From contig NZ_JACHOU010000019.1 in assembly GCF_014206975.1 (NCBI RefSeq), positions 1 to 64,000 of the forward strand: a stretch of 64,000 nucleotides of DNA, given 5' to 3'. This DNA is from Aminobacter aganoensis. Its GTDB lineage: Bacteria > Pseudomonadota > Alphaproteobacteria > Rhizobiales > Rhizobiaceae. Below the pieces are notes generated by a model, which was not told the DNA's origin, searched no databases, and was given only the letters and a program-made list of their open reading frames with translations. The position numbers were made by a program, and so were the translations under genes. The number at the start of each line of letters is the position of its first letter. Positions within the stretch are counted from its first letter, which is position 1. This document shows positions 2,661 to 56,336 of the stretch, piece by piece.

Positions 2661-2686
2661 TCTCGTTCGAGTTGGGGGTTAGTCAA

Positions 2687-5600: not shown

Positions 5601-8600
5601 CGTTCGGCGGCATGCTTGGTTCGACCTTCAATGCCGTCTTCGAGGCGCAGCTCGAAATGCTGCAGGATCTCGACCGGTTCTACTACCTGACGCGCACGCA
5701 AGGCCTGAACCTGCTCAACGAGCTCGAGAACAATGCGTTCTCGAAACTGATCGCGGCCAACACCGACATGATCGACCCGGGTCCGGACGGCATCCGAGGC
5801 ACCGCAGACGACATCGAGAGCCCGTTCCGGACGGGTGTCGATTCCTTCGCCAAGCACGATTTCGTCCTCAACATCGATCGCGACAAGCAGATCGAGGACG
5901 ATCCGACGCACGACGACGCCGCGCTCAACGCCCTCGGCATGACCAAGGTCCAGCGCGACAACCTGTTGACCGAAGCCGACGAAACCGCCTCCAGCAACTA
6001 CATCCGTTTCATCGGCGGCGAGCACGTGGTGATCGGCGGTTCCGCGGGCAATGACACGATCATCTCCGACTATGGCGACGACGCCATCTGGGGCGGCGCG
6101 GGCGACGACCGCATCGAATCCGGAGCAGGCGTCGACTTCGTCATCGGCGGCGCGGGCGACGACATCATCACCGACTCGGGCGACACCGGCGACTTCATCA
6201 AGGGCGAGGACGGCGACGACGTCATCGCCAATTCCAATGGCCTCGACGTGCTCATGGGCGGCGACGGCAAGGACGTGTTCATCGTCGGCGTCGACGGCAC
6301 GGAGGTCTTCGCCGGCGAAGGCGACGACTTCATCCTCGGCGGCGCCGACCACGACTTCATCCTCGGCAACGAGGGCGACGACTGGATGGAGGGCGGCGAC
6401 GGCTTCGACGTCCTCAACGGCGACAACTCGGAGCTGTTCTTCAACTCCACGATCATCGGCCACGACGTGATGATCGCGGGCGAGAACGAGAATGACTTCG
6501 ACGCGGAGTCCGGCGACGACATCATGGTCCAGGGCGAAAGCGTGATGCGCAACGAAGGCATGCTCGGCTTCGACTGGGCGATCCACAAGGGCAGCCGGAT
6601 CGCCGCCGATTCCGATATGCGCATCCCGATCTTCACCAACGTCGCCAACGACATCCTGCGCGACCGCTTCGACCAGACCGAAGGCCTGTCGGGCTGGATC
6701 CACAACGACGTGCTGCGCGGCGACGACCGCGGCGACACCAGCGAGCTCGAGCCCGAACTCGACATGCAGGGCCACGAGTTGAACCAGGCCGGCGTCGACC
6801 GCATTGCCGGCCTGCGCGAATTGCTCGAACTCGCCGCGCGCAACGGCGCAAGCGACGACGCGATCGCCTGGACGGGCGGCAACATCCTCCTCGGCGGCGA
6901 TGGCCACGACACGATCGAAGGCCGCGGCGGCAACGACTTCATCGATGGCGATGCCTGGCTCAACGTCCGTATCAGGCTGACCAACGCCGACGCGGCGAAC
7001 ACGCCCGAAAACGAGATCGCCACCGTCGACACGCTGAAGCACGTCTTCACCGCCACCGACGTCGGCGCCAACGGCCAGCCGGTTCCGGTCGCCTGGGCAG
7101 GCAAGGCGCTGTCGGAGCTTTTGCTCGAAGGCACGATCAAGCCAAGGCAGCTCCACATCGTGCGTGAAGTGCTTTCCGCCGATGGCAGCGACGACACCGA
7201 CACTGCCGTCTATGCCGGCAACCGCGACTGGTACGAGATCACGCAAGTCGGCGACAAGACGATCATCGCCCGCCGCGAGCAGGAAGAGATCGATCCGCAT
7301 ACCGACGAGGGCACGGATATCCTCGTCAATATCGAACGCATCCAGTTCGCCGACCAGATCCTCACCCTGCGCACGACAGGCAACCACGATCCGGTCGGGC
7401 AATTGCGCATCACGGGGCTCCCTGCCACCGAGGACGGGCTTCTCACCGTCGATGCGTCACTGGTCTACGACGCCAACTTCCCCGGCGGCGTCATTCCCGA
7501 AGACAAGATCAGCTACCAGTGGCAGGTCGAGCGCAACGACGGCACCGGCGACTTCGTCGACATTCCCGATGCCCAGGGCAACACGTTCCGGCCGGGCGAC
7601 GCCGAAGCAGGCCTCGGCCTGCGCGTTCGCGGCACCTTCGTCGATGGCGGCCAGGTCCGGGAATATGTCTACTCGGCGGTGACCGCGCCTGTCGTTGCGG
7701 TCAATGATGCGCCGTCCGGCAACCTGCTGATCAGCGATCCCTCGCCAACCGAGGGACAGCAGATCACGGCGGCCGTGGCCTTCGTCGATCCCGACGGGAT
7801 GAGCGACGCCTTCGAAGAAGGCCTGCTGACCTATCAGTGGCAGCGTTCTTCGACGCCGGGCATCGAAGCGTCATGGACAAACATCGGCGCTCCGTCGGCG
7901 ACCTCCAGCTACACGCCCGGACAGGCCGATGTCGGCATGTATCTGCGCGTGCGGGTTGACTACACCGACGACGGAGGGAGGCAGGAATTCTTCGTCTCGG
8001 CCCCGACTTCGATGGTGGGCGACGACATCAATGGCAGCAATAACACCGGCAGCGCGGCCATTGACGAGACCCTCAACGGCAACGCCGGCGACGACGTGAT
8101 CGACGGCAACAACGGCGACGACCTGATCAACGGCAATGCCGGCAACGACGTCCTCAACGGCGGCGCGGGCAACGACACGATCAACGGCGGCGACGGCAAC
8201 GACACGCTGAACGGCGGCACCGCCGATGGCACCGGGACGGACATCAACATCCTCAATGGCGGCCTCGGCAGCGACACCTTCATCCACAACGATGACGAAG
8301 GACCAAACGCCTTCAATGGCGGCGAGGACCCCGATGGGGCCGACAACGACACCGTCTACTACACCGGCGACAACGGCAACGACACGCTTGCCGTGGTCTA
8401 TGACGGCACGCGGATCACGCAGCTCGAGGGTGGCACGCTGACCGACATCGAGTCGGTCGTCGCCGACGGCGACAACGTCGATGCCAACCTGCACAGCGTG
8501 ACCTCGGATGGCGACGGCGATGACGACAGGCTGACCTATGCGACTTCGAGCAGCAGCGGCGTCAACGTCAACCTGCTGACGGGCGTCGCCACCGGCTTTG

Positions 8601-11600
8601 CCTTCATCCGCAATTTCGAACACGTCGAAGGCACGCAGAACGCCGACACGCTGGTGGGCAACAACGAGGCGAACGAGTTGGAAGGCCATGGCGGGGCCGA
8701 CACGCTGCGCGGCGGCTTCGGCGATGACGAACTCGACGGCGGCGACGGCAACGACACCCTGTTCGGCGACGCCGGCAACGACATGCTGAACGGCGGGACG
8801 GGTGCCGATACGATGTGGGGCGGCGGCGGCAGCGACACATTCGTCGTCGACAACGCTTCCGACGTCGTGGTCGAGGCTGCGAGCGAAGGCATCGACACAG
8901 TGCGTACGATGCTGGCCTCCTACACTGCCGGCAACAATGTCGAGAACATCACCTACGTCAACGGCAGCAACAGTGGTTCCGGCACCGGCGCCTTCACCGG
9001 CACCGGCAACGCGCTCGACAACTTCATTACCGGCGGCACGGCCGGCGACGTCCTGACCGGCAATGACGGCGACGATACGTTGATCGGCAATGGCGGCAAC
9101 GACACGCTGACCGGTGGCGCCGGCAACGACGTCCTCGATGGCGGCACGGGTAACGACACCATGACCGGCGGAACCGGCGACGACACCTATTATGTCGACG
9201 ACGTCAGTGCGCCGGCGGACGTGGTCACCGAGCTCGACAACGAGGGCACCGACACGGTGATCTCGTCCCAGAGCTACACACTGGGGTCATTCGTCGAAAA
9301 CCTAACCTTGAGCGGATCGAGCGGCAACAGCGCAACCGGCAATGCCCTGGACAATGTGCTGACAGGCAACAGCGGCGGCAACACGATCAGCGGTGGTGGC
9401 GGCAACGACAGGCTGCGTGGCGGTGGTGGCAACGACACGCTCTATGGCGGCACGAGCAGCGGCGACAGCGGAACCGAGGACACGGCCATCTTCTCGGGCT
9501 CGCTGGCCGGCGCAGCCTTCGGCAGCAGCGGCAGCAATCTCACCGTCAACGCAGGCGACGGCACCGACACGATCAGCGGCATCGAGCGCTTGCAATTCGC
9601 CGATCACCTGGCAAACGTGCTCTATTCCACTGCCAGCAGCGCTGTGCCCCTCAATGGCACGGCGAATGCCGACCTCTTTGTCGGCACGGTCGGTTCCGGC
9701 GCCCGGACCATGGTCGGCGGCGATGGCGACGACCACTATTTCGTCAACGGCAACGACACTGTCTCGGAGACGAGCAGCACCGGTGGCACCGACACGGTCT
9801 ATGTCGCGCAGGGACTGAACAGCTATAGCCTGGGCGACAATGTCGAGAACCTGACGGCACAGGGCTCCGGCACCCGAACCCTTACCGGCAACGGGCTGGC
9901 AAACGTCATCGTTGGCGGCACCGGCAACGATGCCATGAGCGGTGGTGGTGGCAACGACACCTACTACGTCAACAATACCGGCGACACGGTCAGTGAAGGC
10001 AACGGAACTGCCGGCGGCATCGACAAGGTCGTCTCGTCGGTTTCCTACACCCTCACCGATGCCGACGTTGAAGACCTCGAACTCTCCGGCACCAGCGGCA
10101 TCAGCGCTACCGGCAACGGCTCGGCCAACCTGCTGACCGGCAACGCTGGCAACAACACGCTGAATGGCCAGGGCGGCACCGATACCGCGGTCTTCGCGGA
10201 CGGCGCGATCGACTATCGGTTCGACCTCAATGGCGGCAACGCCAGGGTCAACGCCTATGGCGAGGGCGGCAACGACACGCTGCAGGGCATCGAGCTCATC
10301 CGCCTTGCGGGGATCGATTACGCGCTCAGCAACGGCAGCAACGCCGGCGCGACCACGAATGGCAGCGGAAGTGCCGAACTCCTCCTAGGCAATGGCGGCG
10401 ACGACACGCTCAATGGCAATGGCGGCAATGACATCCTGGTCGGCGGCGACGGTGAGGACACCATCAATGGTGGTGCCGGCAACGACACCATCATCTGGGA
10501 CGGCACCAACGGCGATGACCTCGACGCGGTCGATGGCGGCGCCAACACCGATACCTTCCACATCAACGGAAGCAATGCCGGCGAAACGTTCCGGATCTAC
10601 ACCGCCCTCGAATACGCGGAAGCACTCGATACGACCGCGCCCGAAGGCTACGAGATCTTCATCACCCGGGCGGTTGGCGGTGGCGACGAGACGCTGATCG
10701 CGCAGCTCACCAACATCGAGGAGATATCGATCAATGCGCGCGGCGGCACGGACAGCTTCGAGGTGTTCGGCGACTACACCAACACCAGCCTGAGCCTCAG
10801 CACGATCACGATCGAAGGCTCTCCAGGCAATGACACGGTCGACATCTCCGGCCTGCAGTCGGCCCATCGCATCGTGTTCAAGACCAATGGCGGCACCGAC
10901 ACCATAGTCGGCAATCTGCGGCCGCAGGACGTGATCCAGTTGCCCGACGGCACCACCATTGCCGACTACGAGGTGACGATCGACGAGGAGACAGGGCGGA
11001 CGAAACTGACGAGCGACAACCACTCCGTCACCTTCGTTTCACCTCAGGGAATGCCCAACATCGGATCCGGCGACGATGATGATGATGATGACGACGACAA
11101 TGTCGAAAACCCGCCTCCCGGCAGCGGCAACGGCGACGGCGACGGAGACGGAGACGGAGACGGAGACGATAACGGTCCCGGCAGCGACGACGACGAGGAT
11201 GAAGATGACGTCGGCGTCGTGTCGCCCGGTGCGATCGCGGGAACGGCGATTGCCGATGTTCTGCTTGGCACCGCGGCGAATGACTCGATCATCGCACTCG
11301 CCGGCGACGACGTTCTGCGTGGCCAGGGCGGCGAAGACTTCCTGTCAGGCGGCGAAGGCCGGGACATGGCGTTCGGCGGCGACGGCAACGACGACATGCT
11401 CGGCGGCGACGGCGCGGACATGCTTTATGGCGATGGCGGCGCCGACCGTATCTTCGGCGACGACGGCGACGACCTGATCAATGCCGGCGCGGGCAGCGAC
11501 GCAGTGCAGGGCGGGTCCGGCAACGACTTGATCCTGGCCTCGGCCGGTGATGGCGACGACAGCTACTGGGGCGACGGCATGTCGTCCTGCGGGGCCGGCA

Positions 11601-12100
11601 TCGACACGCTCGACATGTCGGCAATCACCGCCAACAGCACTGTCGATCTCGGCACCGGCCTCGGCGGACGCGGCAGTGCCTCGTCCAGCCAATCGGGCAC
11701 GGACACGCTCTGGGGCATCGAGAATGTGGTCACCGGATCGGGTGACGACATGATCACCGCCAGCAGCGCCGTGAACGTCATGGATGGCGGCGCCGGGGAA
11801 GACACGTTCCGTTTCCTGTCGACTGCCGACGCGGATGGCGACACCATCGTCTCCTTCCAACCCGGCGACCGCATCGACCTGTCGGCAATCGACGCCAATA
11901 CCGGCTCTGCCAACCACCAGTTCACCCTGGTTACCGGTTCCGGCTTCAATGCCGCCGGGGCGCTGCGGGTCACACACGAAACCTGGCAGGGCCAGGACTA
12001 CACGCTGGTGGAGGGCAATACCAATGGCGGCAGCGACGCCGAATTCACGGTGAAGATCAAGGGGCGTCACACGCTGACGACAAACGACTTCGACCTCTAA
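2687..12100 (+). CDS. giant RTX haem peroxidase secreted by type I system
   Basis: A 3137-residue secreted animal-type haem peroxidase fused to long Ca-binding RTX arrays. By eye-alignment with mammalian peroxidases the catalytic residues are present: distal His309 (FFGQFFDHGLD), Arg590 and haem-linking-type Glu593 (RGNENIGLT), proximal His714 (YRFGHSM), and the ARGRDTG block near 840. RTX nonapeptides (GGxGxDxxx) start near residue 1110. Two Ig-like domains follow (about 1568-1782), then further RTX blocks broken by beta-rich stretches with the VENLTL-type motif. A poly-acidic linker lies at about 2796-2842, then a last RTX block and a C-terminal type I signal region. There is no N-terminal signal peptide, as expected for this route. 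The ATG at 2687 has GGGGG upstream and was preferred to a TTG at 2672. The fusion of peroxidase and RTX is a known bacterial group (peroxicin-like); substrate and halide preference are unknown. Confidence 0.95.
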   Translation: MAVKLNKHDLEFILKQIKIAEAHASGIPLTEIRVDENGNYGTSGNIAITQPHLPYGLRTVDGTYNNIIPGRELWGAADQTMPRLFDPNWRNETDGDSFDPDGPTQPGSAVTNGNYNSGGASGSIADADPRIISNLIADQTPNNPAALIAALRHAGVEGDLTAAMASVTAPYALVHAVHVAEGRVASWQKMKDDIQGAIDAAIAAGQPTAHLTVLQPMIDGNLAAAQAAAAVASADADAYQITLPDGDDADTADDVVIGAQEALNRIATDLGLEFEVDGRSLKIPNVAPDEGLSAPFNGWMTFFGQFFDHGLDLISKGGDGTIYVPLQPDDPLYVPGGFTNFMVLTRATQVEGPGADGVLGTADDTQREAVNVTTPFVDQNQTYTSHPSHQVFLREYKLDADGQPLATGKLVGNRRPNELDEYFGAGSVDLGGLPTWAVIKAQARELLGIELTDKDVFAIPLIRTDLYGEFVRDANGMPQVIVGLGPDGIPNTNDDVLVSGNLDNPLKLRLPTDPASVEGITPVRTSHSFLDDIAHNAVPVIANGVLVVDNVVIGGIDPAGNAVQFNPLTGRNTQYDNELLDKHFITGDGRGNENIGLTAVHHVFHSEHNRQIEVNKQYIIETVQSGEADIAFLNEWLLTDVTALPANLADLQWNGERLFQTARFATEMQYQHLVFEEFGRKVQPMIDVFVFNTITDIDPAIFAEFAHVVYRFGHSMLTEEISRMFLDGDGAPVRYGLIDKLDANGAPILDENGDPVQEMGQIAIAPGQLADWSQDVGLIEAFLNPVEFDKDGTITHDQAAGAIFRGMTLVQGNEIDEFVVDAVRTNLLGLPLDLAAINIARGRDTGMPTLNQAREQLYEASNSTFVKPYTSWSELAANLKNPASIINFIAAYGKHSSLTSQVADASSPTGFRDKNVDELRAAATLLVMGGVGAPPAAERLAFLNSTAGWNPANSGLNDIDLWIGGLAEKKMPFGGMLGSTFNAVFEAQLEMLQDLDRFYYLTRTQGLNLLNELENNAFSKLIAANTDMIDPGPDGIRGTADDIESPFRTGVDSFAKHDFVLNIDRDKQIEDDPTHDDAALNALGMTKVQRDNLLTEADETASSNYIRFIGGEHVVIGGSAGNDTIISDYGDDAIWGGAGDDRIESGAGVDFVIGGAGDDIITDSGDTGDFIKGEDGDDVIANSNGLDVLMGGDGKDVFIVGVDGTEVFAGEGDDFILGGADHDFILGNEGDDWMEGGDGFDVLNGDNSELFFNSTIIGHDVMIAGENENDFDAESGDDIMVQGESVMRNEGMLGFDWAIHKGSRIAADSDMRIPIFTNVANDILRDRFDQTEGLSGWIHNDVLRGDDRGDTSELEPELDMQGHELNQAGVDRIAGLRELLELAARNGASDDAIAWTGGNILLGGDGHDTIEGRGGNDFIDGDAWLNVRIRLTNADAANTPENEIATVDTLKHVFTATDVGANGQPVPVAWAGKALSELLLEGTIKPRQLHIVREVLSADGSDDTDTAVYAGNRDWYEITQVGDKTIIARREQEEIDPHTDEGTDILVNIERIQFADQILTLRTTGNHDPVGQLRITGLPATEDGLLTVDASLVYDANFPGGVIPEDKISYQWQVERNDGTGDFVDIPDAQGNTFRPGDAEAGLGLRVRGTFVDGGQVREYVYSAVTAPVVAVNDAPSGNLLISDPSPTEGQQITAAVAFVDPDGMSDAFEEGLLTYQWQRSSTPGIEASWTNIGAPSATSSYTPGQADVGMYLRVRVDYTDDGGRQEFFVSAPTSMVGDDINGSNNTGSAAIDETLNGNAGDDVIDGNNGDDLINGNAGNDVLNGGAGNDTINGGDGNDTLNGGTADGTGTDINILNGGLGSDTFIHNDDEGPNAFNGGEDPDGADNDTVYYTGDNGNDTLAVVYDGTRITQLEGGTLTDIESVVADGDNVDANLHSVTSDGDGDDDRLTYATSSSSGVNVNLLTGVATGFAFIRNFEHVEGTQNADTLVGNNEANELEGHGGADTLRGGFGDDELDGGDGNDTLFGDAGNDMLNGGTGADTMWGGGGSDTFVVDNASDVVVEAASEGIDTVRTMLASYTAGNNVENITYVNGSNSGSGTGAFTGTGNALDNFITGGTAGDVLTGNDGDDTLIGNGGNDTLTGGAGNDVLDGGTGNDTMTGGTGDDTYYVDDVSAPADVVTELDNEGTDTVISSQSYTLGSFVENLTLSGSSGNSATGNALDNVLTGNSGGNTISGGGGNDRLRGGGGNDTLYGGTSSGDSGTEDTAIFSGSLAGAAFGSSGSNLTVNAGDGTDTISGIERLQFADHLANVLYSTASSAVPLNGTANADLFVGTVGSGARTMVGGDGDDHYFVNGNDTVSETSSTGGTDTVYVAQGLNSYSLGDNVENLTAQGSGTRTLTGNGLANVIVGGTGNDAMSGGGGNDTYYVNNTGDTVSEGNGTAGGIDKVVSSVSYTLTDADVEDLELSGTSGISATGNGSANLLTGNAGNNTLNGQGGTDTAVFADGAIDYRFDLNGGNARVNAYGEGGNDTLQGIELIRLAGIDYALSNGSNAGATTNGSGSAELLLGNGGDDTLNGNGGNDILVGGDGEDTINGGAGNDTIIWDGTNGDDLDAVDGGANTDTFHINGSNAGETFRIYTALEYAEALDTTAPEGYEIFITRAVGGGDETLIAQLTNIEEISINARGGTDSFEVFGDYTNTSLSLSTITIEGSPGNDTVDISGLQSAHRIVFKTNGGTDTIVGNLRPQDVIQLPDGTTIADYEVTIDEETGRTKLTSDNHSVTFVSPQGMPNIGSGDDDDDDDDDNVENPPPGSGNGDGDGDGDGDGDDNGPGSDDDEDEDDVGVVSPGAIAGTAIADVLLGTAANDSIIALAGDDVLRGQGGEDFLSGGEGRDMAFGGDGNDDMLGGDGADMLYGDGGADRIFGDDGDDLINAGAGSDAVQGGSGNDLILASAGDGDDSYWGDGMSSCGAGIDTLDMSAITANSTVDLGTGLGGRGSASSSQSGTDTLWGIENVVTGSGDDMITASSAVNVMDGGAGEDTFRFLSTADADGDTIVSFQPGDRIDLSAIDANTGSANHQFTLVTGSGFNAAGALRVTHETWQGQDYTLVEGNTNGGSDAEFTVKIKGRHTLTTNDFDL
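11072..11210 (+). repeat. acidic low-complexity tract inside the peroxidase gene
   Basis: Nine Asp codons (11072-11098, mixed GAT/GAC) are followed by a Pro/Gly/Ser/Asn stretch, an array of alternating Asp-Gly codons built from repeated GACGGAGAC-type units, and another Asp/Glu run. At protein level this is a highly charged flexible linker separating the last RTX block from the rest of the peroxidase. The near-identical tandem units make the length prone to change by slippage. Confidence 0.85.
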
Positions 12101-47289: not shown

Positions 47290-48306
47290 TCAGGCCTTCT
47301 CGTATTTCGCCACGGTCTGCTCGATGGCGCCAAATATCGAGTGGCCCGTCTTGTCGTGCATCTCGATGCGGACCAGGTCGCCGAACTTCAGGAACGGCGT
47401 TTTCGCAGCCCCCGTTTCGATGGTCTCGATCGTCCTGATTTCGGCGATGCAGGAATAGCCCGCACCGCCTTCGGCAACCGGCTTGCCAGGTCCGCCGTCG
47501 AGCTTGTTGGAGACCGTGCCCGAGCCGATGATCGTGCCGGCGCAGAGCGGCCGGGTTTTCGCAGCATGGGCGACGAGCTGGCCGAAATCGAAAGTCATGT
47601 CGAGGCCGGCATTGGCCCGGCCAATTGGCTTGCCGTTGACGCCGACAAGGAGTGGCAAGTGCAGCTTGCCGCCGTCCCAGGCGTTGCCCAACTCGTCCGG
47701 GCTGACCGCAACCGGCGAGAACGCCGTCGACGGCTTGGATTGGAAAAAGCCAAAACCCTTGGCGAGTTCCGCCGGGATCTGGCCGCGCAACGAAACGTCG
47801 TTGACCAGCATGACCAGCCGTATGGCGTCCCGCGCCTCTTCGACAGACGCGCCCATCGCCACATCGTCGACGATGACGGCAACCTCGCCTTCGAGGTCGA
47901 TGCCCCAGGCCTCGTCGGCCATGACGATCGGATCGCGCGGACCGAGGAACGAGTCCGAACCACCCTGATAGATCAGCGGATCGGTCCAGAAGCTTGCCGG
48001 CATCTCGGCGCCGCGTGCCTTCCGCACCAGCTCGACATGATTCACATAGGCAGACCCATCGGCCCACTGATAGGCGCGCGGCAAAGGCGAGGCCGCATCA
48101 TGCTCGTGGAAGCGCATCGTCGGCTGGCTGCCAGTCTCAATGCCTTCGGCGACATTGGCCAGCCGCGGGCCGACATGGGCCCAGTCGTCGAGTGCCGCCT
48201 GCAGCGTGCGGGCGATGTGGCCAACCTCGGAACAGCTGGTGAGGTCCTTCGAGACCACGACCAGCCGGCCGTCGCGGGTGGAGTCTTTCAGCGTCGCGAG
48301 TTTCAT
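47290..48306 (-). CDS. fumarylacetoacetate hydrolase family protein
   Basis: A 338-residue FAH-fold enzyme, presumably the fumarylacetoacetase giving fumarate and acetoacetate. The metal-binding acidic pattern is in EAWGIDLEGEVAVIVDDV, and GTIIGSGTVSNKLDGG lies near the C-terminal third; both are typical of the family. It is shorter than the roughly 420-residue animal-type enzyme but has the size found in many alphaproteobacterial homogentisate clusters. The ATG at 48306 gives MKLATLKDSTRDGRLVVVSK, the usual start. It is 13 bp downstream of hmgA and immediately upstream of maiA. Confidence 0.93.
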   Translation of the reverse strand: MKLATLKDSTRDGRLVVVSKDLTSCSEVGHIARTLQAALDDWAHVGPRLANVAEGIETGSQPTMRFHEHDAASPLPRAYQWADGSAYVNHVELVRKARGAEMPASFWTDPLIYQGGSDSFLGPRDPIVMADEAWGIDLEGEVAVIVDDVAMGASVEEARDAIRLVMLVNDVSLRGQIPAELAKGFGFFQSKPSTAFSPVAVSPDELGNAWDGGKLHLPLLVGVNGKPIGRANAGLDMTFDFGQLVAHAAKTRPLCAGTIIGSGTVSNKLDGGPGKPVAEGGAGYSCIAEIRTIETIETGAAKTPFLKFGDLVRIEMHDKTGHSIFGAIEQTVAKYEKA

Positions 48307-48319
48307 GGTGTTCCCGTCT

Positions 48320-49669
48320 TCACTTGATGCCTGGTGTGCCGTCGAACTTGCGTTCCAGACCATCCCAGCAATCGATGTAATTGTCCTGCAGTGTTTCCAA
48401 CTCGGCGGCAAATTTCGTCAGTTGCTGGGGAAAGCGCGTCTCGAACATGAAGGCCATGGTGTGGTCGAGCTTGACCGGCTTGAGTTCGCCGTTCGACGCC
48501 TTCTCGAAGCCCATGGCATCCGGTCCGTGCGGCAACATCATGTTGTGCAGGCTCATGCCGCCAGGCACGAAGCCCTCTTCCTTGGCGTCGTACTGGCCGT
48601 AGATCAGACCCATGAACTCGCTCATGATGTTGCGGTGATACCAGGGCGGGCGGAAGCTGTGCTCGGCGACAAGCCAGCGCGGCGGGAAGATGACGAAATC
48701 GACATTGGCCGTGCCTGCCTCTTCCGTCGGGGCGGTCAACACCGTGAAGATCGACGGATCGGGATGGTCGAACAGGATGGCACCGACCGGCGAGAAGGTG
48801 CGCAGGTCATATTTGAACGGCGCATAGTTGCCATGCCAGGCGACGACGTCGAGCGGCGAATGGCCGATCTCCGTGACATGGAACTTGCCGCACCATTTGA
48901 CCAGCACGCGGCAAGGCGTTTCCTTGTCCTCATAGGCAGCCGTCGGCGTCTTGAAGTCGCGCGGATTGGCCAGGCAGTTGGCGCCGATCGGGCCCCGGTC
49001 GGGCATCGTGAACTTGGCGCCGTAATTCTCGCAGATGTAGCCACGCCGCATCTCGCCCTCGCCGAGGCGCGAGACCTTGAACATCATGCCACGCGGGATC
49101 AGGCAGATCTCCGATGGCTCGACGTCGATGATGCCCATTTCGGTAAAGATGCGGATCGACCCCACCTCGGGCACGATCAGCAGTTCGCCGTCGGCATTGA
49201 AGAAATAGTCGTCGTCCATGTCGTCGTTGAAGGCATAGACATGTGCGGCCATGCCAACCTGGGTCATCGCATCCCCCGCCGTCGTCATGGTGCGGATGCC
49301 CTGGATGAAATTCGTCCTGTCGTTGGGCTCAGGCAGCGGACCCCAGCGCAGCTGTCCGAGCGCAAGAGAATGATCGTCGAGGCAAGGCGCGGTCTTCCAG
49401 TGCGGATAGCTGGCGCCCGAAAACCGCTTGGTGTGACGAACGCTCGGGCGGATACGGTAGAGCCAGGAGCGCTCGTTGGTGCCGCGCGGCGCGGTGAATG
49501 GCGAGCCTGACAGCTGCTCGGCATAGAGGCCGTAATTGCACTTCTGCGGGCTGTTCTGGCCCTGTGGCAGCGCGCCCGGCAGCGCCTCGGTCTCGAAGTC
49601 GTTGCCGAAGCCCGGCATGTATTTCAAGGCCGCGGCAGCAACCGCCTGCTTTTCGGTTTTGTCCAGCAT
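48320..49669 (-). CDS. hmgA: homogentisate 1,2-dioxygenase
   Basis: A 449-residue iron-dependent ring-cleaving dioxygenase converting homogentisate to maleylacetoacetate. It begins near [19 protein letters not shown] and contains [20 protein letters not shown]. The iron-ligand region is [20 protein letters not shown] (His and Glu, about residue 330) with MLPHGPDAM (His) some 30 residues later, matching the His-Glu-His ligands of the human enzyme. The ATG at 49669 has GGAGG eight bases upstream; a GTG at 49678 overlaps that site. It is divergent from a MarR regulator with tandem operators between. Confidence 0.97.
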
Positions 49670-49707
49670 GGCTTGCACCTCCCGTCAGCACATGAGATCG
49701 TCTAATT

Positions 49708-49737
49708 GGTTGCAATTGTAACCGTTGATTTTGTAAC
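49708..49737. promoter_or_regulatory. tandem MarR-type operators between hmgA and marR
   Basis: GTTGCAATTGTAAC (49709-49722, flanked by G and C to give GGTTGCAATTGTAACC) and GTTGATTTTGTAAC (49724-49737) agree at 11 of 14 positions and are spaced 15 bp. The first is a near-perfect palindrome. They fill the gap between the two divergent genes and end 16 bp before the regulator's ATG. They probably bind the MarR protein and control both genes. Confidence 0.65.
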
Positions 49738-49753
49738 TATCAAAGGCTGCACG

Positions 49754-50203
49754 ATGCCTCCGCCCTTCGATCTCGAGAGCTTCCTGCCCTATCGGCTGAA
49801 CCGCGCCGCCGAGCTGATCAGCCTGAGCTTCGCACGCGAATACAAGCAGCGCTACCAGATGACACGGCCGGAATGGCGCACGCTCGCAGCTCTCGGCAGC
49901 GCCGGGCGAATGACGGCGACAGAGGTCGGCGCCCATTCCAACATGCACAAGACCAAGGTCAGCCGCACCGTGGCAGCACTCGCCGGGCGCCGCTGGCTGA
50001 AGCGGCGCGAGAACGAGTCCGACCGCAGGGTCGAGCATCTCGAACTCACCGCCGCCGGCCTCAGGGCCTATGGCGAGATCGCCGACCTTGCGCGTACATA
50101 TCAGGCGAGCCTGGAAGCTGCGCTCGGATCAGGCGCCATCGAGCGCATCGAGGCGGGGCTGGCCGAGGTCGAGCGGGCGTTGCTGGAAAAGAGGCGACCG
50201 TAG
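49754..50203 (+). CDS. MarR-family transcriptional regulator of homogentisate genes
   Basis: A 149-residue winged-helix regulator. It has FLPYRLNRAAELISLSFARE at the N-terminus, the DNA-binding region YQMTRPEWRTLAALGSAGRM then HSNMHKTKVSRTVAALAGRR, the wing KRRENESDRRVEHLELTAAG and a C-terminal dimer helix. The start at 49754 lies downstream of the operator pair; an open frame from 49706 would begin inside it. Its divergence from hmgA suggests repression relieved by homogentisate or a related aromatic. This is inferred from position. Confidence 0.92.
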   Translation: MPPPFDLESFLPYRLNRAAELISLSFAREYKQRYQMTRPEWRTLAALGSAGRMTATEVGAHSNMHKTKVSRTVAALAGRRWLKRRENESDRRVEHLELTAAGLRAYGEIADLARTYQASLEAALGSGAIERIEAGLAEVERALLEKRRP

Positions 50204-50204
50204 T

Positions 50205-50307
50205 CCCCCTCCCTCTTGTGGGGAGGGGTCGGGCGTGGGGGTACCTCTTTGCCAGTGGCGCGCCTAGCCACACCCCCACCCTTTATCCCTCCCCCGAAGG
50301 GGGAGGG
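50205..50307. repeat. GC-rich palindromic intergenic repeat (REP/RIME-like)
   Basis: Three nested inverted repeats fill the gap between two genes. They are CCCCTCCC..GGGGAGGGG (50205-50228), GTGGGGGT with the ACCCCCAC region (about 50235 with 50278), and a perfect 9-bp CCCTCCCCC-GAA-GGGGGAGGG (50287-50307). The composition, a C-run/G-run palindrome beside short coding genes, is that of the mosaic palindromic elements scattered through rhizobial genomes. It probably also ends transcription from both sides. Confidence 0.75.
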
Positions 50308-50342
50308 AGGGCGTCCACGTCGCGCTCGACTTAGCCGCGCCC

Positions 50343-50810
50343 CTACCCTATCGGCAGCGGCCCGAACTGCTTCAGCGTCGTCAGCACGATCGCCGTCTTC
50401 ACGTGCTGCACGGAATCATGCGGCAACAGCACTTCGTTGACGAAACGCGACAGGTCCGACAGTCCCCGGACCGCGACCTTGATGTGGTAGTCCATCTCGC
50501 CGGTCAGCGAATAGGCCTCGAGCACTTCGGGCAGGTCGTTGACCAACCGGGCGAAACGCTGGGCATTGTCGCGGTTGTGGGTGGCAAGCGTCACCGAGAT
50601 CACCACCAGCAGGTCGAGCCCCAATCGCTCGCGGTCGAGCATCGCCTGGTAGCCGCGGATGAAGCCTTCCGCCTCCAGCCGGGCGCGCCGCCGCGAGCAT
50701 TGCGAAGCCGACAGCGCAATCTTCTCCGACAGTTCGTTGTTGGTTAGACGTCCGTCGAGCTGCAGTTCGCGCAGGATCTTGAGGTCGAACTGGTCGAGTG
50801 CTTCATTCAT
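50343..50810 (-). CDS. Lrp/AsnC-family transcriptional regulator
   Basis: A 155-residue regulator. The N-terminal helix-turn-helix (about 5-60) has LDQFDLKILRELQLDGRLTN, ELSEKIALSASQCSRRRARL and EGFIRGYQAMLD. The C-terminal ligand-binding domain has VISVTLATHNRDNAQRFARL and AYSLTGEMDYHIKVAVRG. The start is the ATG at 50810; the frame is open to 50858 but lacks family similarity there. It is divergent from hppD and very likely its activator or repressor, sensing an aromatic amino acid or keto acid. That role is inferred from the position. Confidence 0.93.
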   Translation of the reverse strand: MNEALDQFDLKILRELQLDGRLTNNELSEKIALSASQCSRRRARLEAEGFIRGYQAMLDRERLGLDLLVVISVTLATHNRDNAQRFARLVNDLPEVLEAYSLTGEMDYHIKVAVRGLSDLSRFVNEVLLPHDSVQHVKTAIVLTTLKQFGPLPIG

Positions 50811-50829
50811 TGCACAAAACTCCCATTCC

Positions 50830-50886
50830 ATGCACGCTTCACGCATAAACCAGCCCAAAGAGGATCACAATGCAAGCACATTGCAT
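50830..50886. promoter_or_regulatory. dyad sites between lrp and hppD
   Basis: A perfect inverted repeat ATGCAA-GCACA-TTGCAT lies at 50870-50886, and a second partial dyad ATGCACGCTTCACGCAT at 50830-50846, 40 bp apart centre to centre (about four helical turns). Both have ATGC/GCAT ends. This spacing on one face of the helix suits an Lrp-type octamer wrapping DNA across the divergent promoters. Confidence 0.6.
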
Positions 50887-50935
50887 CGATTTGGGAGCAC
50901 ACTATGCGCAACCCCATTTCTGAGGAGGATTTGCC

Positions 50936-52045
50936 ATGGGTCCATTCCCGCACGATGCGCCGCCGGCCAAGATCAACGCCGACAATCCCGCTGGCACCGA
51001 CGGCTTCGAGTTCGTCGAGTTCGCGCACCCCGAGCCCGAGAAGCTGGAAGAGCTTTTCACCCGCATGGGCTACCAGCCCGTCGCGCGCCACAAGACCAAG
51101 AAGATCACCGTCTGGCGCCAGGGCGACATCAACTACATCGTCAATGCCGAGCCGGGCAGCCATGCCATGCGCTTCGTCAACGACCATGGCCCCTGCGCTG
51201 CCTCGATGGCCTGGCGGGTGGTCGATGCCAAGCACGCCTTCGATCACGCGGTGTCGAAAGGCGCTACACCCTACACCGGTACCGACAAGGCGCTCGACGT
51301 GCCGGCCATCGTCGGCATCGGCGGCTCGCTGCTTTACTTCGTCGACAAGTACGGCGCCAAGGGCTCTGCCTACACGGCGGAATTCGACTGGCTCGGCGAA
51401 ACCGATCACAAGCCTGAAGGAGTCGGCTTCTACTTCCTCGACCACCTGACCCACAATGTCTATCGCGGCAACATGGACAAGTGGTGGGACTTCTACCGCG
51501 AGTTGTTCGGCTTCAAGCAGATCCATTTCTTCAACATCGACGGCCGCATCACCGGCCTCGTCAGCCGCGCCATCACCTCGCCCTGCGGCAAGATCCGCAT
51601 CCCGCTGAACGAGTCCAAGGATGACACCAGCCAGATCGAGGAATACCTGCGCAAGTACAAGGGCGAAGGCATCCAGCACATCGCCGTCGGCACCGACGAC
51701 ATCTATGCCGCCACCGACAGGATCGCCGACAAGGGACTGAAGTTCATGCCCGGCCCGCCCGATACCTACTACGAGAAGTCGCACGCCCGCGTGCACGGCC
51801 ATGACGAGCCGATCGAGCGCATGAAGACGCACGGCATCCTGATCGACGGCGAAGGCGTGGTCGACGGCGGCATGACCAAGATCCTGCTGCAGATCTTCTC
51901 CAAGACCGTGATCGGCCCAATCTTCTTCGAGTTCATCCAGCGCAAGGGCGACGAGGGCTTCGGCGAAGGCAACTTTCGCGCGCTGTTCGAATCCATCGAG
52001 GAGGACCAGATCCGCCGCGGCGTGATCTCGCAGACAGCCGCCTGA
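50936..52045 (+). CDS. hppD: 4-hydroxyphenylpyruvate dioxygenase
   Basis: A 369-residue Fe(II) dioxygenase that turns 4-hydroxyphenylpyruvate into homogentisate, the substrate of HmgA. Two vicinal-oxygen-chelate domains are present. The iron ligands of the family fall at His170 (LDHLTHNV), His248 (GIQHIAVGT) and Glu332 (FFEFIQRKGD). GAGGAGG lies shortly before the ATG. Length and motifs are normal. It is divergently transcribed from the Lrp regulator and ends with a strong terminator, so it is a single-gene unit separate from the hmgA operon. Confidence 0.97.
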   Translation: MGPFPHDAPPAKINADNPAGTDGFEFVEFAHPEPEKLEELFTRMGYQPVARHKTKKITVWRQGDINYIVNAEPGSHAMRFVNDHGPCAASMAWRVVDAKHAFDHAVSKGATPYTGTDKALDVPAIVGIGGSLLYFVDKYGAKGSAYTAEFDWLGETDHKPEGVGFYFLDHLTHNVYRGNMDKWWDFYRELFGFKQIHFFNIDGRITGLVSRAITSPCGKIRIPLNESKDDTSQIEEYLRKYKGEGIQHIAVGTDDIYAATDRIADKGLKFMPGPPDTYYEKSHARVHGHDEPIERMKTHGILIDGEGVVDGGMTKILLQIFSKTVIGPIFFEFIQRKGDEGFGEGNFRALFESIEEDQIRRGVISQTAA

Positions 52046-52637: not shown

Positions 52638-52901
52638 TCAGGCCCTGGGAGCCATGACACTGAGCAGACGGGCGCGGCGATAAGCATCGGGGATTGACAG
52701 CGCCCAGACGAACAGGCCGCCGGCGTGCCGGCCGATGAACGAGGTTTCGGGCGTCGTGGTGACATAGGAAATCACCGCGAACAGGACGACGAAGAAAGCA
52801 AAGGCAAGCCCTCGCTTGGGATCGCGGACCGCGACGTGACCGGCGCCCGGCAGGACGACCGCCAAGGCGAGCACGAGATAGGGGTTGATCGGCTTGGCCA
52901 T
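52638..52901 (-). CDS. small membrane protein of unknown function
   Basis: An 87-residue protein with two predicted membrane helices: PYLVLALAVVLPGAGHVAVR (Gly/Pro-rich in the manner of TM2-like small proteins) and LAFAFFVVLFAVISYVT. A Tyr-Arg-Arg rich C-terminus follows. It ends at the convergent stop of the DUF6455-like gene and starts nine bases after the upstream gene, so the two minus-strand genes 53609-52638 form a pair. I do not recognise a function. Confidence 0.7.
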   Translation of the reverse strand: MAKPINPYLVLALAVVLPGAGHVAVRDPKRGLAFAFFVVLFAVISYVTTTPETSFIGRHAGGLFVWALSIPDAYRRARLLSVMAPRA

Positions 52902-52910
52902 CGATCTTCC

Positions 52911-53609
52911 TCAGGCTGCTTCATAGGCCAATGCTGCGCGCTCGTCCTCGGCAAGGACGGCGCTCAGCGCTTCGGCCTCGGCAAGGGCGGCACGCACGAG
53001 TTCGGGCGGTATGGCGGTCAGCGGAAAGCGCGCCTGCCGGAGCACTTTGTGCGCACCGGGCTCGCCTTGCGCGGCTTGCCTTATGATGCGCGTGCCGCCC
53101 GGCGTGATGACGGCTTCCTTGACCGTGGGATCGACAAACAGGTTCCTGAACAGTGCCGAGACTCGCTCGGCCTGCCAGGCCGTCGCGCGGCCATCGCCAC
53201 GCATCAGCAATGATGCTTCCGTCTCGGGAGGCGCCATCCAGTCCGGCATGTCGTGGACGAGCGAATAATATTCGGCGCCGGTCGGGCGGGCCAGCGCTCC
53301 AATGGTCGGCCGCGAACGGTTGCGCTGCTCGCTGAGCGTGACCCTGAGCCAGAGCTGGGGCAAACGGCGCGTGACCATGGTGTCGGCGATGAGTTCGATC
53401 TTTGCCTGCCTGCCATCTTCGAGCCGGCCCACGACGACAGGAAAATGATCGGGCCCGAAACTGATGCGGGAACTGGCAAACAGCCTCGCAGCGTCGTCGA
53501 GCAGGCCTTTGCGCTCGGCCAGTGCAGCGTGGTGATCGCGAACGGCGCACATGCCCATCCAGCCGCATGCAGCCGCGGCGAAGACTGAGAGGGCGATGGT
53601 GGTGAGCAT
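52911..53609 (-). CDS. hypothetical single-span membrane or exported protein
   Basis: A 232-residue protein. An N-terminal hydrophobic segment (MLTTIALSVFAAAACGWMGM) may be a signal anchor. The rest is soluble and mixed alpha/beta (RISFGPDHFPVVVGRLEDGR, YYSLVHDMPDWMAPPETEAS), with no enzyme motif I recognise. The ATG at 53609 gives the hydrophobic N-terminus; the frame stays open to 53909 but that part is unlike a protein start. It is co-directional with and nine bases upstream of the 87-residue membrane protein, suggesting joint function. Confidence 0.7.
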   Translation of the reverse strand: MLTTIALSVFAAAACGWMGMCAVRDHHAALAERKGLLDDAARLFASSRISFGPDHFPVVVGRLEDGRQAKIELIADTMVTRRLPQLWLRVTLSEQRNRSRPTIGALARPTGAEYYSLVHDMPDWMAPPETEASLLMRGDGRATAWQAERVSALFRNLFVDPTVKEAVITPGGTRIIRQAAQGEPGAHKVLRQARFPLTAIPPELVRAALAEAEALSAVLAEDERAALAYEAA

Positions 53610-53668: not shown

Positions 53669-55066
53669 TCAGTAACCGACTGGCTTCGGCCAGGGCATGG
53701 TGAACTGGTCGCCGCGGCGCACGAACTGGTAGCGCCGGAAGTGGAACCAGAGCGATGCCACGATGTAGAAGCACATCATCGCGCTGAGCTGCGTGCCATA
53801 GCCGAGGAACACGGCGAAATAGGCGGTCGAGCACAGGATCAGCAGGACGATCGTCGGCAACGGGTGGAACGGATGCACATAGCCGCGCTTGATCGTGTCG
53901 AGCGGCCACTTGTTACGGAACATCACCATGTTGAAGGTCATGAAGGTGTATCCGAGCAAACCCGACAGGATCGAGAAGGTCACGACCTGGTCAAGCGGTG
54001 CGCCGAGCGCGAAGATAAGCGCGATCGGAACAAGGAAGACGATGGCGCGGTAGGGCGTCCGGTAGACCGGATGCACGGCACCGAACCAGCTCGGCAGGTA
54101 GCGGTCGCGGCCCATCGAGAACCAGGCGCGCGAGGCGTCGTTGATGCAGCCATTGGCCGACGCCAGCGTGGCGAAGGTCGTGCCGACGAACAGCAGGATC
54201 ATCAAGCCGGTGCTGCCGGTGACGCGAGCGGCATCGAACAGCGGTGTACCCGCCTGGCCGAGATATTCCCACGGCACCAGGCCCGAGCAGACATACCAGG
54301 TCATGGTCGCGGCAATCAGCAGTGTCATGATGCCAGCCATGGTTCCGTAGGGCAGCGAACGTGCCGGCGAGCGCACTTCCTCGGCCGCCTGGCAGGTGCC
54401 TTCGATGCCGAGATAGTACCAGAGGCCAAAATGCAGCGCCGCAACGATGCCTACCCAGCCGTAAGGCAGCGGATCGGTGGTAACCGCCGAGAAGTCGAGC
54501 GGAACGTTGGAGGCGCCGAACTGCACGGAGACGAACAGCGTGATGATCGCCAGGAAGGCGACTGCGGTGATGACCAGATTGAAGGTCAGCGTCGCCAGCA
54601 CGCCGCGATAGTTTAGCCACGCCAGGAACATGATGGCGAGGATGATGAAGGGCTGCTGATTGAGCCCGGAATGCCCTTGCATGCCCGCAACCGTGTCGAG
54701 CAGGAAGCCGACGGTGATCGCGTTGGCCGCCTCCAGCATGGTGTAGGCCATGACCAGGAACAGGCCGACATTAAAGGCCATCAACGGGCCGACGATGTGC
54801 TTGGCCTGGGCATACTGGCCGCCAGCCGCGGCGACCGTCGACGTCACCTCGGAATCGATCATGGCGACGCAGGTATAGAGCAGGCCGGCAACCCAGCAGG
54901 CGACGAGACCGGCGATCATGCCACCTTTGCCGACCGAGAAGTTCCAACCCATATATTCGCCGACGAGCACGATGCCGACGCCGAGCGCCCAGATATGGGC
55001 CGGGCCCAGCACGCGCAGCAGCTGAAGCCGTTCAGGCTCCCCTGCCGTTGAAGTTACATTTGCCAT
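53669..55066 (-). CDS. APC-superfamily permease (ethanolamine/amino-acid type)
   Basis: A 465-residue permease with about twelve helices. The first helix has the APC substrate-binding pattern IWALGVGIVLVGEYMGWNFS, and LYTCVAMIDSEVTSTVAAAGGQYAQAKH resembles the ethanolamine-permease branch (second helix and following loop). A conserved NGCINDASRAWFSMGRDRYL block follows. It is the last gene of a minus-strand operon after three mini membrane-protein genes with gaps of 10-12 bp. That is an unusual setting for an APC carrier, which normally works alone. The substrate is a guess (an amine or amino acid). The ATG follows GAGGGGACGACG. Confidence 0.88.
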   Translation of the reverse strand: MANVTSTAGEPERLQLLRVLGPAHIWALGVGIVLVGEYMGWNFSVGKGGMIAGLVACWVAGLLYTCVAMIDSEVTSTVAAAGGQYAQAKHIVGPLMAFNVGLFLVMAYTMLEAANAITVGFLLDTVAGMQGHSGLNQQPFIILAIMFLAWLNYRGVLATLTFNLVITAVAFLAIITLFVSVQFGASNVPLDFSAVTTDPLPYGWVGIVAALHFGLWYYLGIEGTCQAAEEVRSPARSLPYGTMAGIMTLLIAATMTWYVCSGLVPWEYLGQAGTPLFDAARVTGSTGLMILLFVGTTFATLASANGCINDASRAWFSMGRDRYLPSWFGAVHPVYRTPYRAIVFLVPIALIFALGAPLDQVVTFSILSGLLGYTFMTFNMVMFRNKWPLDTIKRGYVHPFHPLPTIVLLILCSTAYFAVFLGYGTQLSAMMCFYIVASLWFHFRRYQFVRRGDQFTMPWPKPVGY

Positions 55067-55076
55067 CGTCGTCCCC

Positions 55077-55244
55077 TCAGATCTCGTGGCGCTCTGCCGT
55101 CGCCTCGATCTCGCCTTCGCGAGAGGAGATCAGCAGTTCGTTGTCATAGGTGGTGTCGATGCGGATGAGGTCGATGAGCATCAGCACGCCGAACATGGCC
55201 GAGAGTGCCCAAGCCACGTATTCCAGGATGTTCCAGGTATCCAT
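55077..55244 (-). CDS. 55-residue single-span membrane protein
   Basis: A small gene between the 126-residue protein and the permease. The protein has one membrane helix (NILEYVAWALSAMFGVLMLI) followed by an acidic, charged tail (REGEIEATAERHEI). GGGAGAGG stands before the ATG. Spacing is 12 bp to the gene upstream and 10 bp to the permease downstream, so it is clearly inside the operon. Too short for family recognition; the operon position and codon-periodic composition support it as real. It may be an accessory subunit of the APC permease. Confidence 0.75.
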   Translation of the reverse strand: MDTWNILEYVAWALSAMFGVLMLIDLIRIDTTYDNELLISSREGEIEATAERHEI

Positions 55245-55256
55245 AGTGGCCTCTCC

Positions 55257-55637
55257 CTATGGCTTCTTGCCGAAGCGTTCTTCGATGACTTCGCGATATT
55301 CCTTGTCGGACAGCCGTACGACCATGACGAAGTAGCCGATGACCAGCACCGCCATGACGATCAGCGCGACCCAGCTGAAGCTGTAGTCGAACCGGGCGGT
55401 GATGATGTCATTGGCTGCTGCCGGATCGGTGATGCCGAGAGCGGCCCATTGCTGCTGCTCGGTGGCGTTCTGGCCGAGCGCTTCCCAGGTCGGGTTGGCG
55501 ATTGGGTTGGGCACCTTGGCGGCGCCGGCGAGGCCCAGGTAGAGCGGAATGTAGAGCGCGCCGACGGTGAGCACGAGCAAAGTCAGGACGTCAAAAATCT
55601 GGCCCGCGAGGCCCTGTTTTGGAGGTTTGTAAGCCAT
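55257..55637 (-). CDS. 126-residue two-span membrane protein
   Basis: Two membrane helices (VLTLLVLTVGALYIPLYLGL, about 16-38, and VALIVMAVLVIGYFVMVV, about 90-108) flank a polar, probably extracytoplasmic loop of about 50 residues rich in Asn, Pro and Gln. The C-terminus is charged (DKEYREVIEERFGKKP). AGGAAACGCACA precedes the ATG. It is the second gene of the four-gene permease operon, with 11- and 12-bp gaps. I recognise no family; a role as partner of the permease is inferred from operon structure. Confidence 0.78.
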   Translation of the reverse strand: MAYKPPKQGLAGQIFDVLTLLVLTVGALYIPLYLGLAGAAKVPNPIANPTWEALGQNATEQQQWAALGITDPAAANDIITARFDYSFSWVALIVMAVLVIGYFVMVVRLSDKEYREVIEERFGKKP

Positions 55638-55648
55638 TGTGCGTTTCC

Positions 55649-55966
55649 TCAGCCTCGGCGACGCCGCATCTCGTCGAGATGCTTGAGGTCAAGGCCATAG
55701 ATGAAGTGTTTGTCTTCGACGTAGTGGCGCAGCATGGCGACGATGGCCGCCGTGTTGAACGTCAGCACCAGCGCGCAGGCGATCGACAGGATCACGCGGA
55801 TGGCGGGCAGCGAGATGTAGGACCAGACGCTGAACAGAGCAAACAACATGGTGCACCACAGCACCACGACAAAAATCACAAGGCCTGCTCGATCGCGTCC
55901 GTGCATCTTGTCGATGCGCTGCTCAAGCGTCGCATCTCCGCTTCGATGGGCTAGTGTTGCTTCCAT
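55649..55966 (-). CDS. 105-residue two-span membrane protein
   Basis: The first gene of the permease operon. A charged N-terminus (about 27 residues) precedes two helices (LVIFVVVLWCTMLFALFSVW and VILSIACALVLTFNTAAIVA) and a C-terminal tail EDKHFIYGLDLKHLDEMRRR. The ATG at 55966 has an exceptionally strong AGAGGAGGAGG five bases upstream. In-frame upstream ATGs to 56080 would run through the palindrome at 56005-56020 and are rejected. No family is recognised. With the 126- and 55-residue proteins it may form an accessory membrane module for the APC permease. Confidence 0.78.
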   Translation of the reverse strand: MEATLAHRSGDATLEQRIDKMHGRDRAGLVIFVVVLWCTMLFALFSVWSYISLPAIRVILSIACALVLTFNTAAIVAMLRHYVEDKHFIYGLDLKHLDEMRRRRG

Positions 55967-56336
55967 TTTCCTCCTCCTCTCGGCCGTTTTCGGCTTCATT
56001 ATGCGGGAAATTAATTTCCCCTGAGGAATGTCCGGCAAACTTAAATTGCTGTCAAGTGAAGCCGCGATCACATGCCGCACCCAGGCTTTAGGCCAGAGCA
56101 GAACGACATTGAAACGATTGAGTTTTATGGATTTGGCAGGATGTCGGAAATTTTACGGGACAGGCCCGAAGCCCCATGCGGAGGGGTCACAAAGGACGTT
56201 TTGGCTGCCAAAGCGTCAATTTGAGGTGGCGATACGGGAGTCACAAACGGTCGGCGTCGGGAGAGCGACACTCATGATTTTCGGCAGGCAATGATGCCTG
56301 CCGAGTTGATTGATCGGCCAAGCGGCTACAGCGAAC
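55967..56336. other. 370-bp intergenic region upstream of the permease operon
   Basis: It contains the perfect palindrome at 56005-56020, a hairpin TCGGCAGGCA-ATGA-TGCCTGCCGA (56281-56304, 10-bp perfect stem) close to the end of the phytase-like gene, and otherwise no supported gene. A plus-strand open frame at 56028-56294 has no family features or ribosome site. The hairpin probably marks the 3' end of the DUF4956 operon transcript. Confidence 0.65.
56005..56020. promoter_or_regulatory. perfect 16-bp palindrome upstream of the permease operon
   Basis: GGGAAATTAATTTCCC is self-complementary over all 16 bases and lies 39-54 bp before the first start codon of the four-gene operon, in an AT-rich stretch that stands out locally. 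This is the expected position for an operator or activator site of that operon. I cannot assign it to a regulator; none is coded next to it. Confidence 0.65.

Follow-up and report, generated by a model that had tools for sequence, protein, structure and literature searches.

Three genes for small membrane proteins, here called S1, S2 and S3, directly precede the gene of an APC-family permease in the window, i.e. the whole stretch of 64,000 nucleotides of Aminobacter aganoensis DNA that was analysed, and two further genes, X and Y, continue the series on the same strand. Membrane spans were predicted from Kyte-Doolittle hydropathy in 19-residue windows.

S1, 55649-55966, minus strand: 105 aa, two membrane spans by hydropathy
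S2, 55257-55637, minus strand: 126 aa, two membrane spans by hydropathy
S3, 55077-55244, minus strand: 55 aa, one membrane span by hydropathy
APC-family permease, 53669-55066, minus strand: 465 aa, Pfam AA_permease_2
X, 52911-53609, minus strand: 232 aa, N-terminal membrane anchor and folded domain
Y, 52638-52901, minus strand: 87 aa, two hydrophobic spans
Perfect palindrome GGGAAATTAATTTCCC, 56005-56020, no strand: 38 bp before the start of S1

S1 and S2 are separated by 11 bp, S2 and S3 by 12 bp, and S3 and the permease gene by 10 bp; further down, 59 bp lie between the permease gene and X and 9 bp between X and Y. Coordinates and hydropathy (two, two and one spans for S1, S2 and S3; X has one and Y two) agree with the original prediction of three small reading frames of 105, 126 and 55 residues, spaced by 10-12 bp before an APC permease. 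The ribosome site assigned to each of these genes corresponds to a purine-rich stretch a few bases 5' of the ATG of S1, S2, S3 and the permease gene. The proposed four-gene operon needs enlarging: the four tandem genes are present, but the unit goes on with X and Y, and among 80 named loci 75 contain this six-gene unit in full. These loci were fetched with the permease probe as the best 80 of 304 matching, and the set is therefore biased to close relatives. Four of the remaining five end at contig ends, and the fifth (L055) has X and no Y match. The RefSeq annotation of plasmid pUSP1 of Aminobacter sp. MSH1 contains the same six ORFs with identical lengths. As relatives align over nearly their full length, order and strand are kept and the annotation of MSH1 matches, S1-S3 and the permease gene are regarded as real genes.

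The permease belongs to the APC family by its match to Pfam AA_permease_2 (PF13520), which exceeds the gathering cut-off (92.2 bits, cut-off 27) and covers model positions 16-406 of 427; it also matches AA_permease with 91 bits (cut-off 24.6). The best NCBIfam model is the ethanolamine permease TIGR00908 (8e-55), and this likeness suggests a small amine as the substrate, but the score of 186.4 bits is under half the equivalog cut-off of 381.75. A C-terminal tail QFTMxWPRPxGY or a near variant of it was found in each of the 15 printed tails that were complete. The nearest named relative among the best 80 of 304 matching loci is that of Aminobacter niigataensis, with a 99% identical permease.

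Relatives of the small proteins align over nearly their whole length down to 36% identity for S1, 45% for S2 and 42% for S3. The family alignments have invariant residues in the tails of S1, S2 and S3 and in the loop of S2. The C-terminal tail of S1 has the family consensus HYxEDKxFIYGLDIKxLDExR, S2 carries a conserved loop, some 50 residues long, between its two membrane spans, and S3 ends in a conserved LTSSREGEIEA. These residues, together with the permease tail, could form docking surfaces. The AlphaFold2 model of S2 (mean pLDDT 82.1, pTM 0.40) has helices at 10-34, 58-66, 72-80 and 89-122, i.e. two long ones and two short ones within the loop; its best match among PDB folds had an E-value of 7.5, and the alignments of S1 and S2 gave no match below E 0.5 against PDB sequences. 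In Pfam searches, at most 2 of 37 S1 members hit any one family (best DUF4153, 1.4e-4), S2 hit no consistent family (FixQ with 2 of 32 members, BCCT with 1 of 32), and none of 32 S3 members was matched; the known small transporter-subunit families of Pfam were thus not consistently matched by S1, S2 or S3. X likewise had no consistent Pfam match, and Y matched DUF6677 weakly, under the Pfam cut-off. The AlphaFold2 model of X has high confidence (mean pLDDT 94.6, pTM 0.89), and its best, weak fold match in the PDB is TtfA (6t84), with a Foldseek E of 0.012, probability 1.00, 9% identity and TM-scores of 0.39 (query) and 0.50 (target). No PDB match reached E ≤ 0.001 in this search, and a TtfA-like fold of X, TtfA being a mycobacterial transport factor, is suggestive only.

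Linkage of the unit across genomes

Bacterial APC carriers are generally treated as single-gene transporters. S1, the permease and S2 served as probes in the genome searches. The S1 probe matched 44 of 297 genomes of the order, at 45 places. The permease probe (E ≤ 1e-55) matched 43 of the 297, which are the S1 genomes less G004, and the odd one is explained by a contig end. Among the matches listed, the weakest permease match had an E-value of 3.5e-190, and none fell between that and the limit of 1e-55. At 44 of the 45 S1 places a same-strand permease gene lies downstream, no more than 726 bp away (575-726 bp at 43 places, 95 bp at one), and the 45th place is a contig end. The fear that homologues of the small genes would occur mostly apart from the permease, voiced with the original prediction, is therefore not borne out in these 297 genomes.

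Starting from S1, 30 loci were fetched, which contain S2 in all 30 cases and S3 and the permease in 29, L008 ending at a contig end. With S2 as the probe, 14 of 398 genomes of the phylum, 6 of 337 of the class and 11 of 150 of another order were matched, together 28 distinct genomes. In 27 of these, S1, S3 and the permease lie in the same short locus; the 28th (G660) has a weak match (E 0.004) with no S1, S3 or permease beside it. Co-occurrence in the same order, suggested as a check of the association, was found in 35 of 36 wider stretches, where the six genes run in the usual order and on the same strand; in the 36th (L190) the contig stops short of X. Of the plasmid records, 22 match the permease at E ≤ 1e-100, and the identical 22 match S2 at E ≤ 0.001. 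Two of these are from the betaproteobacterium Paraburkholderia, whose permeases are 68-69% identical to that of the window, and the one that was examined contains the complete set of six genes. S1-S3 stand directly before the permease gene in every locus examined, whereas neighbours such as gmaS, mgs, mgd and dmm vary. Gene fusions were also sought, and among 164 loci with the permease no open frame joins two of the six families.

Carrier and putative partners are thus encoded together, as would be expected of a multi-subunit APC transporter, with a partial exception in locus L276 (G031:C1:541000-560000). There, at 9445-11176, a second permease gene follows a degenerate S1, and S2, S3, X and Y are absent; the same genome holds a full copy elsewhere, and by eye a transposase-like stretch seems to lie upstream of the second copy. 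Such a locus could show, as a natural experiment, which of the partners the permease can do without. In L181 (9449-14306) the unit reads S1-S2-S3-APC-APC-X-Y, with two permeases in tandem that share 76% and 74% of their residues with that of the window. In the second order, the three loci translated (L153, L156 and L159) have a gene of about 145 codons between permease and X, which in L156 (11231-11662) matches Pfam Usp, the universal stress protein.

Methylated-amine genes around the unit

Neighbouring genes were counted to a distance of at most 6 kb on either side of the 80 named loci. The commonest identified ones are gmaS (32 loci), mgsA (26), mgsC (24) and mgsB (21), followed by the genes of phosphoenolpyruvate carboxylase (PEPC, 17) and serine hydroxymethyltransferase (SHMT, 15), and in about ten loci dmm-type genes and a TMAO permease are near the unit. 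The names of the Mgs subunits, as well as that of PurU, are probable assignments in keeping with the family matches shown. On the contig of the window, the genes of SHMT (from 62.7 kb), PEPC (from 64.1 kb), mgdC (from 68.3 kb), mgdA (from 71.7 kb), gmaS (at 73.0 kb) and mgsCBA (74.4-77.4 kb) are all encoded on the strand of the operon, at distances of 7-22 kb from it; in our reading of gene order and first residues, more serine-cycle genes probably follow up to 85 kb. A gene for a PuuR-like HTH-cupin regulator at G000:C19:77761-78498 (L117) lies beside mgsABC and, with its relatives, is a recurrent neighbour; the relative in L072 matches HTH_3 and Cupin_2.

The plasmid pUSP1 of MSH1 carries the same arrangement as this contig, so that the Aminobacter genes are plasmid-borne. 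For A. aminovorans, the N-methylglutamate genes and nine serine-cycle genes have been described on plasmid pAA01, in a section that makes no mention of the operon (PMC8235418). In Paracoccus aminophilus, the pAMI6 genes RS21935, RS21940, RS24840, RS21950, RS21955 and RS21960 are the six genes, divergent from mgsABC-gmaS. The host of this plasmid, strain JCM 7686, has been shown to grow on methylamine, and the section of that paper on the island leaves the six genes unmentioned (PMC4543880). In the Paraburkholderia locus (L135), a dmmD-like gene immediately follows Y. Mesorhizobium sp. 1M-11, which is described to use methylated amines (PMC4653772), carries the unit (L064), and Aminobacter sp. 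MET is reported to grow with methylamine and dimethylamine as nitrogen sources (PMC9800807). In Methyloversatilis universalis, conserved proteins co-clustered with the N-methylglutamate genes have been reported as increased 6-10-fold on methylamine (PMC5023235). We do not count this as support, because the paper leaves the proteins unnamed, its list skips nine gene numbers that fall between mgdD and qhpB, and gmaS, mgs and mgd have printed q-values of 0.65-0.75.

The association also holds at the level of whole genomes. gmaS (TIGR03105 above cut-off) occurs in 104 of the 297 genomes of the order, namely in 43 of the 44 S1 genomes versus 61 of the 253 others (Fisher p 8e-22, with kinship ignored); in 24 of these 43 genomes the distance from S1 to gmaS is at most 10 kb, and 32 have both on one contig. 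The unit thus occurs together with methylamine catabolism genes, as a methylamine transporter should. Conversely, stretches around gmaS were fetched from 60 of the 61 S1-negative gmaS genomes (L196-L255, all except G181), and 54 of these hold gmaS and mgsC, with neither S2 nor the window-type permease in any of the 54. The N-methylglutamate pathway can therefore run without the unit, which is optional. Amt was considered as a substitute for uptake where S1 is missing, and it was found near gmaS in 6 of the 54 S1-negative and 1 of the 31 S1-positive stretches, so that no clear pattern emerged and Amt is not a general replacement; most S1-negative N-methylglutamate loci have neither the window-type permease nor Amt by gmaS.

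A common regulatory site was looked for as well. The palindrome GGGAAATTAATTTCCC, whose putative function is operator-like, is the sole such site in the genome of 5.76 Mb even if up to 2 mismatches are allowed, and it is identical in five Aminobacter loci (L033-L037). A second palindrome upstream of S1, TTTGGCTGCCAAA, was found among 277 loci only in those of the window genome and in L033. Neither was found near mgsA (L117), so that no shared operator of the S1 and mgsA promoters emerged and co-regulation by a common site is not supported. A promoter scan yielded no sigma-70-type site, although the relatives printed share a TTGACA 5' of S1.

A putative methylamine importer and its alternatives

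What is conserved is the gene set with its order and strand; in the 297 genomes no permease of this subfamily occurs without S1, and the unit is linked to methylated-amine genes. We consider it probable that the six genes encode one transport system for the import of a small methylated amine, most likely methylamine and possibly dimethylamine, with S1-S3 as integral partners. The narrower reading, a dedicated methylamine importer that is an obligate hetero-oligomer of the APC carrier and the subunits S1-S3 with X and Y as accessory proteins, has in our view about an even chance. A small-amine substrate is favored because the nearest NCBIfam model, the ethanolamine permease, is a small amine carrier. 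The permease would bring methylamine in for the N-methylglutamate pathway, and GmaS would trap it as gamma-glutamylmethylamide. S1-S3, with five membrane helices in total, may pack on the permease and be needed for its stability, assembly or regulation; their conserved tails would be cytoplasmic by the positive-inside rule, and X, a membrane-anchored domain, and Y may be accessory. Of the undescribed multi-subunit transporter or sensor-transporter that had been proposed, the linkage held and a methylated-amine context has been gained, while the physical complex, like the substrate, the direction of transport and the roles of single subunits, is what we infer.

As five partner genes seem to be more than a carrier requires, the S1-S3 set might, together with X and Y, alternatively be a co-regulated membrane module beside the permease, such as an amine-flux sensor or assembly factors; the conserved tails of S1, S2 and S3 could then dock a soluble enzyme instead, and the TtfA-like fold of X, weak at best, would also fit. 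We think that this is unlikely, as the permease is never seen without S1 and S1 never without the permease except at the contig end, and as the small genes keep their place before the permease while the catabolic neighbours come and go. Slightly less likely still, the carrier would serve methylated-amine metabolism but move other cargo inward than methylamine, i.e. dimethylamine, gamma-glutamylmethylamide or N-methylglutamate, or exchange ammonium and methylamine. APC carriers include antiporters, dmm genes are frequent neighbours, and in Paraburkholderia the dmmD-like gene follows Y; indeed, gene neighbourhood as such cannot separate methylamine from dimethylamine, from an exchange carrier or from the export of a pathway product. 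Against this stands that gmaS is the common denominator of 43 of 44 S1 genomes and that methylamine is the substrate of GmaS, an incomplete argument, as the systematic genome-wide count covers gmaS. That the genes are functionally unrelated and stand together by chance or by inheritance within a lineage is very improbable. Many of the loci are close relatives, the 131 distinct permease sequences amount to an effective number of 15 at 80% identity, and the Fisher test is uncorrected for kinship; but order and strand are kept from Alphaproteobacteria to Paraburkholderia, at only 68-69% permease identity, and the neighbouring genes are reshuffled around the kept unit. The S1/permease linkage in 297 genomes and the ordered six-gene loci largely refute such an origin.

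The preferred reading of an importer with integral small partners can be compared with several known systems. The earlier remark that no small partners of APC carriers are known needs qualification, as E. coli MgtS is bound to GkApcT in the crystal structure (PDB 5oqt/6f34), with its helix packed against TM5, although it is described as a chance heterologous partner from the expression host (PMC5803215). According to the same report, GkApcT made without MgtS has less total alanine uptake at a similar initial rate. It is the nearest structural precedent, a small single-span protein that packs on a carrier of the APC family and affects stability and uptake, and GkApcT structures are also the best PDB sequence relatives of the window permease, though at E-values of only 7e-16 to 2e-15; in contrast to MgtS, which is not encoded with GkApcT, the three partners are encoded and conserved with the permease. 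The SLC7/SLC3 heteromeric amino acid transporters likewise pair an APC light chain with a partner in the membrane, and the permease matches SLC7 light chains, too, among PDB sequences; the SLC3 heavy chain, however, combines a single span with a large extracellular domain, which S1-S3 with 55-126 aa do not have. Among the solute:sodium symporters, ActP-YjcH presumably is a case in which a secondary carrier and a small membrane protein are encoded together, but the carrier family is another one and S1-S3 members have no DUF485-type Pfam match. The TMAO permease TmoP (NF053774) is an APC-fold carrier of the same methylated-amine islands and stands beside Y in L083, yet NF053774 is absent among the 16 NCBIfam models that the window permease matches at E ≤ 1. 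For the methylamine uptake step itself, a review names Amt carriers and proposes an Amt adjoining gmaS-mgsABC as methylamine transporter (PMC8292978), which would have the same task in the same pathway but is unrelated to the window permease; for other methylotrophs, the mode of uptake has been called unclear (PMC6794327).

No description of the operon was found in the full-text literature, which is not conclusive, since most subscription papers lie outside its coverage. The tie to a transport role in the breakdown of methylated amines goes beyond the original prediction and has good support from the gene context. Methylated amines matter to the turnover of nitrogen and carbon in soil and sea, and the six genes are concrete candidates for methylamine uptake. 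If the narrower reading is true, a bacterial APC-family carrier has its own conserved set of small subunits, and genes can be assigned to the specific methylamine uptake system; a conserved set of three would also raise the question of subunit roles in the large APC family. The six genes in Alpha- and Betaproteobacteria, L181 with its two tandem permeases and L276 with S1 and permease only provide a set of tools for this. Elsewhere in the window, genes of tyrosine/homogentisate catabolism including hppD adjoin the operon in Aminobacter at 47290-52045, where hmgA and the fumarylacetoacetate hydrolase gene were named by comparison with pUSP1, and a very long ORF of 3142 codons occupies 2672-12100.
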